25,587 nucleotides of DNA from Cladosporium sp. IMV 00045 (lineage: Eukaryota > Ascomycota > Dothideomycetes > Cladosporiales > Cladosporiaceae), in the NCBI GenBank assembly GCA_001931905.2, contig MSJI02000274.1, positions 1 through 25,587 of the forward strand, in the 5' to 3' direction. A model generated the notes under the pieces. The model was not told the DNA's origin. It did not search any database and was given only the letters and a program-made list of their open reading frames with translations. Below are positions 2,205 to 25,587 of the stretch, one piece after another (positions within the stretch are counted from its first letter, which is position 1; the number at the start of each line of letters is the position of its first letter). A program made the translations under genes and the position numbers.

Positions 2205-2210
2205 AAAAAA
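2205..2210 (-). terminator. RNA polymerase III terminator of tRNA-iMet
   Basis: On the minus strand a run of six T begins three nucleotides after the tRNA 3' end (2213). This is the normal Pol III termination signal and supports an intact, transcribed tRNA gene. Confidence 0.85.
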
Positions 2211-2248
2211 GATAGCTGAGAATGGTTTCGATCCATTGCCCTCCGGGT

Positions 2249-2260
2249 TGCTTAGTTTCC
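2249..2260 (-). other. 12-nt intron at the canonical 37/38 site of tRNA-iMet
   Basis: GGAAACTAAGCA lies between A37 (2261) and A38 (2248), the standard position for introns removed by the tRNA splicing endonuclease. Excision leaves the loop CTCATAA closed by a perfect five-pair stem. It is very short for a tRNA intron but within the range known for eukaryotes. Confidence 0.75.
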
Positions 2261-2274
2261 TATGAGCCCGGCGC

Positions 2275-2330
2275 CTTTTCCTTTGTTAGTTTTGATTCAA
2301 TTCAAAGGTCATTGTTGAGTAAGAACTTAC
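2275..2330 (-). other. 56-nt GT-AG intron inside the D stem of tRNA-iMet
   Basis: On the minus strand the insertion begins GTAAGT and ends GGAAAAG, with AAAACTAACAAAG placing a consensus CTAAC branch site about 15 nt before the end. These are the donor, branch and acceptor signals used by mRNA introns in this window. Excision joins D-stem halves GC and GC and gives the family-standard GCGC-AGCGGAA-GCGC-G. It lies between nucleotides 23 and 24 of the mature tRNA, away from the 37/38 site used by the tRNA splicing endonuclease. Whether the spliceosome removes it is inferred. The boundary could slide slightly without changing the product. Confidence 0.8.
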
Positions 2331-2352
2331 GCTTCCGCTGCGCCACTCAGCT

Positions 2353-8544: not shown

Positions 8545-8647
8545 GCCGGGGTAGCTCAATCGGTAGAGCGTGTGGCTCTTAGAAAATGTCACTGGCATCA
8601 TTCAAGAGACAACCTCAAGGTCGTGGGTTCGAGCCCCACCTTCGGCT
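8545..8647 (+). tRNA. tRNA-Lys (CTT) with a 30-nt canonical intron
   Basis: The acceptor stem GCCGGGG (8545-8551) pairs with CTTCGGC (8640-8646), with U73 at 8647 as in yeast tRNA-Lys(CUU). The D arm is GCTC-AATCGGTA-GAGC. The anticodon loop is CTCTTA|A with anticodon CTT at 8578-8580. The intron spans 8582-8611, after position 37. The T arm is GTGGG-TTCGAGC-CCCAC. Intron bases AAGAG (8604-8608) are complementary to CTCTT (8576-8580), the anticodon-intron pairing typical of pre-tRNAs. The mature length is 73 nt. One oddity is that the anticodon stem TGTGG/CCTCA has a U-U mismatch at 29:41 (8573 and 8615), where TGAGG would pair fully. It is probably functional. Confidence 0.9.
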
Positions 8648-24781: not shown

Positions 24782-25587
24782 ATGCCTCCGCCGCCGCATA
24801 CCCGCCCGGAGAATGTTCTCAAGAGGGCCCAGGAGTTGATTGGCGTCAACCAGCAGCAGGCCGCCCTGTCCATCCTCCACGAGCATGTCACCTCCAAGAG
24901 GACGCGCAACAGCACCATCGCCGCTCTCGAGCCGGTGATGCTCCTCTTCGTCGAGCTTTGCGTCGACCTCAAGAAGGGCAAGGCCGCCAAGGATGGTCTC
25001 TACAACTACAAGAACACCAGCCAGAACACCAACGTCGCCACCATCGAGCTGGTCTTCCGCAAGTTCATCGACCTCGCCGAGGGCAAGGTCAAGGAGGCCC
25101 AGGCCAAGGCTGACGAGGTCTCTGGCGTGCAGTCCACCGACGCTCAGCTCGACAATGTCGGCGATCTCGAGGCCATGGAGACCCCGGAGTCCATCCTGCT
25201 CTCCACCGTTTCCGGCGAGCAGTCGCGCGACAGGACCGACCGCGCCATCGTCACCCCCTGGTTGAAGTTCCTGTGGGAGACTTACCGCACCGTTCTGGAT
25301 ATCTTCAAGAACAACGCCCGTCTCGAGGTCATGTACCAGACCACCGCTCACCAGGCCTTCGACTTCTGCAAGAAGTACACCCGCAAGACCGAGTTCAGGC
25401 GTCTGTGTGAGCTGCTGCGCAACCACTTGCAGAACGCTGCCAAGTACTCCCAGCAGGTCCACGCCATCAACCTCAGCGAGCCCGAGACTCTCCAGCGCCA
25501 CCTCGACACCCGTTTTCTCCAGCTGAACGTTGCCGTCGAGCTCGAGCTCTGGCAGGAGGCTTTCAAGAGTGTCGAGGACATTCACAC
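24782..25587 (+). CDS. TIF32: Translation initiation factor eIF3 subunit a, N-terminal part (runs off right edge)
   Basis: ATG at 24782 (GCCAACATGCC) opens a frame that stays open to the window edge (268 codons). eIF3a is the large scaffold subunit of eIF3, which binds the 40S ribosome and helps recruit the initiator tRNA complex and mRNA. The N-terminus [20 protein letters not shown] followed by [20 protein letters not shown] is the family signature. Further matches are [111 protein letters not shown] and [20 protein letters not shown]. This is the helical TPR-like region before the PCI domain, which lies beyond the window. No intron is needed. The long minus-strand frame opposite it is a by-product of the codon bias. 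Confidence 0.97.

Follow-up and report, generated by a model that had tools for sequence, protein, structure and literature searches.

The window, by which we mean the whole stretch of DNA analysed here (25,587 nucleotides), carries on its minus strand an initiator tRNA-Met gene that reads as three exons separated by two inserts (Table 1). The hallmarks of a eukaryotic initiator tRNA-Met are all found in its exons, namely the A1:U72 pair, the three pairs G29-31:C39-41 of the anticodon stem, A54, A60, and the anticodon CAU. The gene is directly followed, on the same strand, by TCTTTTTT. The first insert, I1, lies in the D arm; the ambiguity of its boundary is a single base, and in our reading of the sequence only one placement yields GT at the start and AG at the end.

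An earlier note on this DNA had described a 56-nt insert with GTAAGT, ACTAAC, and AAAAG between nucleotides 23 and 24, in a gene with A1:U72, three G:C pairs in the anticodon stem, and a T6 terminator, and our analysis agrees with it in each of these points. It had also claimed that exact removal of the 56 nt leaves a perfect initiator tRNA. For I1 alone this does not hold, because the anticodon loop is still interrupted by a second insert, I2, a 12-nt intron at position 37/38 that was absent from the note and was found here. Once both inserts are removed, the claim stands: the product is a 72-nt tRNA identical to that of an intronless gene on another contig (C174).

Table 1. The initiator tRNA-Met gene of the window and its parts, in window coordinates
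Feature	Position	Strand	Remarks
Initiator tRNA-Met gene	2352 to 2213	-	Two inserts, three exons (sequence reading)
Exon 1, nt 1-23 (AGCTGAG...GGAAGC)	2331..2352	-	22 nt; same letters in 6/6 intact genes
A-box region	2332-2345	-	Within exon 1
D-arm insert I1, at nt 23/24	2275..2330	-	56-nt GT-AG intron of spliceosomal type
5' splice site GTAAGT	2325..2330	-	
Branch-site motif ACTAAC	2285..2290	-	Branch A followed by 11 intron nt
3' splice site AAAAG	2275..2279	-	AAG type; competing AG 6 nt upstream
Exon 2, nt 24-37	2261..2274	-	14 nt; anticodon CAT
I2, canonical-position intron GGAAACTAAGCA, at 37/38	2249..2260	-	12 nt; G(-3) able to pair with C32
Exon 3, nt 38-73	2213..2248	-	36 nt; bears A54 and A60
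B box GGATCGAAACC	2224..2234	-	
RNA polymerase III terminator T6	2205..2210	-	

Elsewhere in the window there is a second tRNA gene, on the plus strand at 8545-8647, with an apparently ordinary anticodon-loop intron (Rfam, 51.2 bits). A short-chain dehydrogenase is 87% identical to a metagenome protein and 74% identical to proteins of Cryoendolithus antarcticus and Hortaea werneckii, its nearest named relatives. The ITS region found in the genome resembles that of Cladosporium. The contig that bears the initiator tRNA also holds, at 24782-25585, the start of a gene that we take to resemble eIF3a, a translation initiation factor.

Initiator tRNA loci and their duplicates

The genome that contains the window comprises 49.9 Mb in 954 contigs, among which the contig of the window is labelled C272. 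A genome-wide search with the 136-nt window gene gave 11 matches, which correspond to eight initiator tRNA loci. A GT-AG insert interrupts the D arm in five of them. In C272 and C908 it is located at 23/24 and is 56 nt long, and in C594, C705, and C745 it is located at 26/27, measures 58, 83, and 69 nt, respectively, and begins with GTATGT or GTAAGC. The inserts at 26/27 differ in sequence from those at 23/24, and the branch region ATTACTAATCCGA is common to all three of them. All five genes have a second insert of 10-20 nt at 37/38, and excision of both inserts produces exactly the 72-nt tRNA of C174 in every case. C174 itself is a complete initiator tRNA gene with neither intron, followed by T8, so that six intact genes were found, the five interrupted ones and C174. 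The remaining two loci, C454 and C102, also have no introns, and their D arm contains two substitutions and one deletion; they do not differ over 3,054 nt and may be a single locus assembled twice. To judge from these sequences, most copies of the initiator tRNA gene seem to be interrupted by an mRNA-type intron.

The differences between C174 and C454/C102 (L008, L006) show a strand asymmetry, with 64 changes of G to A and none of A to G, and 55 of T to C and one of C to T; they cluster at the tRNA gene, with 72-88% identity within 200 nt and 93-95% beyond 500 nt. Perhaps this asymmetry reflects transcription-associated mutation.

Are the interrupted genes alive? One objection is that all five are dead or nearly so, that their inserts are never removed, and that C174 makes all of the initiator tRNA. 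In favour of this objection, C174 is a complete gene without introns and with T8 behind it; the Rfam tRNA model scores it at 64.6 bits and finds no match in the five interrupted loci even at an E-value of 0.1; and the D arm shows clear damage in the copies of C454 and C102. The earlier note had named other intact initiator genes that carry all the expression as a finding that would overturn its reading, and the first half of this applies: one intact intronless gene does exist. That C174 could supply all initiator tRNA by itself is a point against a functional role of the interrupted genes. On the other side, all five interrupted genes have exons unchanged at 72/72 letters, with both promoter boxes and a T6-7 terminator in place, and two pairs among their loci are duplicates that differ by 10-21% overall.

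The loci of C272 and C908 are such a pair, with 79% identity over 3.2 kb, and those of C594 and C745 are another, with 87% and 90% identity in blocks of 2.1 and 0.7 kb; C705 has no duplicated partner locus of that kind. In both pairs the exons are identical at 72/72 positions, whereas the identity of flanking segments up to 1 kb away lies between 61 and 92% (C272/C908) and between 78 and 90% (C594/C745). The probability of finding no change in 72 letters is about 4e-8 at an identity of 78.9% and about 6e-5 at 87.3%. Concerted evolution could also be the cause of the exon identity.

The introns of the two pairs have changed in different ways. Between C272 and C908, the D-arm intron is conserved at 51/56 positions, compared with 123/198 in the 200 nt upstream (Fisher p = 1.6e-5), 108/150 at 50-200 nt downstream (p = 0.003), and 6/10 in the 37/38 intron (p = 0.02); the first 50 nt downstream of the gene, with the terminator, are level with it (46/50). 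Between C594 and C745, the D-arm intron matches at 44/58 positions with 11 gaps, which is no better than the flanks. In this intron the middle is scrambled and GTATGTCTA and ATCGAATGATTACTAATCCGA are unchanged; in other words, the changes spare one block of 9 nt at the donor and another of 21 nt at the branch. Intron middles that change around splice signals that stay, like the intact exons, argue against dead genes, and we regard that explanation as unlikely.

By eye, L209/L218 and L214/L217 are further pairs of diverged loci; the pairs that were aligned show 79-90% identity. The presence of such paired loci suggests that the genome is hybrid or anciently duplicated.

Splice signals and the enzymes they point to

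The donors of the five D-arm inserts are GTAAGT (two), GTATGT (two), and GTAAGC (one), so that all conform to GTRWGY and four of them to GTRWGT exactly. The branch sites are ACTAAC (two) and ACTAAT (three), every one of them an RCTRAY motif 6-36 nt before the acceptor, and the branch A is followed by 11-12 nt to the end of the intron in all five. The acceptor is the first AG past the branch in four, the exception being C272, in which a competing AG lies ahead. YAG, which is typical of acceptors but not absolute, occurs in one insert (TAG, in C745), and the other four end in AAG. By comparison, 18 candidate mRNA introns of the same genome, whose selection by donor and branch consensus biases their signals, end in CAG (14), TAG (2), AAG (1), and GAG (1), i.e., in YAG in 16 of 18; an initial list of ab initio mRNA introns was too noisy and was excluded from these counts.

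The introns of fungal U3 snoRNA offer a second comparison. Excerpts of the survey by PMC5832005 report GTRWGT in nearly two thirds of the donors, RCTRAC at 129 of 138 branch sites, a branch distance of 6-36 nt, and YAG at every acceptor but one. The D-arm inserts match these rules in donor, branch, and distance, and deviate from them in the acceptor. Of all the signals, only the AAG ending of four of the five inserts is unusual for the spliceosomal type.

How often such a combination arises by chance was estimated with a set of signals consisting of a GTRWGY start, RCTRAY 6-36 nt before the end, and a final AG. The set is present in 13 of 1,181,512 genomic segments of equal lengths, a tally that includes these introns themselves, and in 13 of 4,302 segments that start with GT and end with AG. 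It did not appear in any of 20,000 single-letter shuffles per intron. A further argument, that the inserts are depleted of RNA polymerase III stop signals, was dropped, because TTTT is absent from all five inserts but is already scarce in the candidate mRNA introns (3/18).

Which enzymes, then, would remove the inserts? One alternative is that the tRNA splicing endonuclease cuts out the D-arm insert, which would then be a non-canonical tRNA intron like those of Cyanidioschyzon merolae or the nucleomorphs of Guillardia. Introns in the D arm are known in those algae, some together with a 37/38 intron (parts of PMC4090602 and PMC9602550), and the same five genes do possess an ordinary 37/38 intron. 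The bulge-helix-bulge motif, here defined as a 4-bp central helix with 3-nt bulges at both cut sites, is held critical for the enzyme of C. merolae and would need intron nucleotides 2-5 to pair with nucleotides 2-5 of the next exon. Tested in three registers, none of the five genes forms a central helix of this kind. The best pairing reaches three of four, two of which are G-U, and falls to one of four in the register in which an outer helix is available; a 3-bp outer helix is possible in the three 26/27 genes in one register. Furthermore, the 56-nt insert folds like its own shuffles (z = -0.05) and thus holds nothing structural. The earlier note had named a bulge-helix-bulge at the insert as a finding that would speak against its reading, and none forms here. 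The conserved letters at the donor and branch also stand against the endonuclease, which is not known to depend on them. We therefore consider it very unlikely that this enzyme cuts the D-arm inserts. Self-splicing group I or group II introns were rejected as well: their catalytic core takes about 200 nt or more, far above the 56-83 nt seen here.

The second insert has the properties of a canonical intron. It follows nucleotide 37 in all five genes, with a G at position -3 opposite C32; the pairing of nucleotide 32 with intron nucleotide -3 is the A-I pair known from yeast. With a D-arm insert that forms no bulge-helix-bulge and a 37/38 insert that has the A-I pair, each interrupted gene seems to bear one intron for each machine, the spliceosome and the tRNA endonuclease. 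The spliceosome would be expected to act first, since the endonuclease reads the folded body of the tRNA, which the D-arm insert breaks. A similar order has been supposed for C. merolae, in which the D- and T-arm introns are removed ahead of the anticodon intron (according to part of PMC9602550).

As to the origin of the inserts, the earlier note had raised a mobile introner-like element, recent copies of which would also lie in mRNA introns of the genome. Such elements are documented in the Dothideomycetes (excerpts of PMC4457414), the class of the nearest named protein relatives of the window, and the use of two sites points to more than one insertion. The hallmark of introners is a large number of near-identical genomic copies. 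In our searches all 11 matches of the 136-nt window gene lie at initiator loci, and the 83-nt intron of C705 matched only itself, in a search insensitive enough to diverged copies to miss its own paralogues. Within this limited sensitivity no copy of the element was found outside the initiator tRNA genes. A recent mobile introner is accordingly very unlikely, about as improbable as endonuclease cutting.

A probable spliceosomal intron in a tRNA gene

The case for a spliceosome that accepts RNA polymerase III transcripts draws on the U6 snRNA of the same genome. Rfam scoring of 47 of the 2,535 first-look candidates identified a single U6 locus, L049 (G000:C83:41429-41597, minus strand), and a DNA search of the genome with this U6 gene revealed no second one. 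The part matched by Rfam is the conserved one, from GAACAATACAGAGAAG onward, and the first 31 positions of the model are out of place. Immediately ahead of AACAATACAGAG there is a 59-nt insert of the form GTAAGT...GCTAAC...CTGCAG, and the missing 5' part of U6 is located upstream of it. When the two sides are joined, ACATTTGGTCAATTTGA runs into AACAATACAGAG, which is the sequence of yeast U6. U6 is essential, and an mRNA-type intron resides in the only U6 gene found, so that the spliceosome of this fungus probably splices at least one RNA polymerase III transcript.

Several lines of observation now support the earlier proposal of a spliceosomal-type intron: five genes with inserts at two sites, each with donor, branch, and AG; the exact rebuilding of the tRNA; the lack of a bulge-helix-bulge; and a similar intron in U6. 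On this sequence evidence we think it highly probable that the window gene and its four paralogues are functional initiator tRNA-Met genes, each with a spliceosomal intron in the D arm and an endonuclease intron at 37/38. RNA polymerase III would transcribe the five genes from their intact A and B boxes to the T6-7 terminator. The spliceosome would then excise the GT-AG intron of 56-83 nt at 23/24 or 26/27, which allows the D stem to form; the tRNA splicing endonuclease (SEN) and ligase would presumably come next and remove the 10-20-nt intron at 37/38; and the interrupted genes may thereby feed the initiator tRNA pool of the cell.

A stronger version of this proposal, to which we give an even chance, is that the spliceosome is needed for most of the initiator tRNA supply. 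D-arm splicing would be required in five of the six intact genes before the endonuclease can act on the tRNA body and the second intron, and the rate of translation initiation would be tied to the capacity of the spliceosome. The introns at two sites would have arisen by two insertions, or by one insertion and intron sliding.

The nearest known parallels are in other small RNAs. The U6 snRNA genes of fission yeast and other fungi likewise have a short GT-AG intron of the spliceosomal type in a small structured RNA polymerase III transcript, whose splicing is reportedly impaired in splicing mutants, to go by the title of one study. In contrast to U6, the host here is a tRNA, which would also need the tRNA splicing endonuclease, and its splicing is deduced from sequence. 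Fungal U3 snoRNA resembles the present genes not only in its mostly GTRWGT donors, RCTRAC branch, and branch distance, but also in the occurrence of intron-bearing beside intronless paralogues and of slightly shifted sites in the Dothideomycetes; its acceptors are different, and it is not a tRNA (parts of PMC5832005). The tRNA genes of C. merolae and the algal nucleomorphs share the extra D-arm intron, whereas the inserts here have spliceosomal signals in place of the bulge-helix-bulge held critical in C. merolae. The I2 of each gene belongs with the canonical 37/38 introns of Eukaryota, from which the D-arm insert differs in both position and signals.

In 2017, U3 and U6 were described as the sole small structured RNAs in which an intron was known to be frequent (excerpts of PMC5832005). 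Non-canonical tRNA introns of Eukaryota have been reviewed in algae, and elsewhere insertions in the D or T arm are mostly presumed to mark pseudogenes (parts of PMC4090602). The earlier note knew of no described case in a tRNA D arm, and among the PMC titles and abstracts listed in our searches, a scope outside which most subscription papers fall, none reports a spliceosomal intron in a tRNA gene. Nor is such an intron described in the portions at hand of PMC4035089, PMC4457414, PMC8450103, PMC9602550, PMC9789556, and PMC10484740. The sequences support the interpretation that tRNA is a novel host class for spliceosomal introns.

The introns of tRNAs and mRNAs have been treated as separate worlds with separate enzymes. 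If the proposal is true, a nuclear tRNA requires both machines, which means that the spliceosome can handle a short, tightly folded RNA polymerase III transcript and then pass it on to the tRNA pathway. How the spliceosome picks RNA polymerase III transcripts, and whether splicing can limit translation initiation, would become testable questions.

The search for other interrupted RNA genes in the genome

The failure of the Rfam tRNA model at the five interrupted loci marks a blind spot. In tRNAscan-SE 2.0, the step for non-canonical introns is described for archaeal searches only (part of PMC8450103), and interrupted tRNA genes of this type may go unnoticed in other fungi.

Within this genome, further cases were sought with two whole-genome patterns in which a B box is preceded by branch and donor motifs. 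With 14 and 22 matches against 17 and 50 for their reversed controls, the patterns show no enrichment of their own. The first recovered the five initiator genes; the second is unfit for the initiator B box. Together the matches fall at 31 distinct loci, and a script checked 30 of them, all but L230. Among these 30, a T stem of 5/5, an acceptor stem of 7/7, and an A box following were found in the five initiator genes and in one tRNA read as Val(AAC), which has an ordinary 37/38 intron. No other tRNA with a D-arm GT-AG insert is present in these 30 of 31 loci, as far as the positions and signals that the patterns can detect. The 48 tRNA matches that were read (of 63 scored by Rfam, from 1,428 candidates) likewise include no D-arm insert. 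In a wider search, GTGGCGCAGCGGAAGCG matched 14 stretches in viral contigs and at least 119 in genome contigs; of the 133 matches listed, 10 have TCGAAA or CTCATAA nearby, and none of the 10 looks like a eukaryotic initiator tRNA.

Other small RNAs of the genome include SRP RNA, with three matches that each run in one stretch across the whole model, and U3, with five loci above the cut-off. One tRNA gene, L052 (G000:C717:16542-16691), reads as tRNA-Ser with an anticodon-loop insert of about 70 nt that contains an apparent inverted tRNA T arm. In L050, a stretch before the 3' end of the 18S rRNA resembles an intron. Finally, a second rDNA copy, L051 (G000:C220:35811-35964), contains numerous G-to-A and C-to-T changes, the pattern expected of repeat-induced point mutation.
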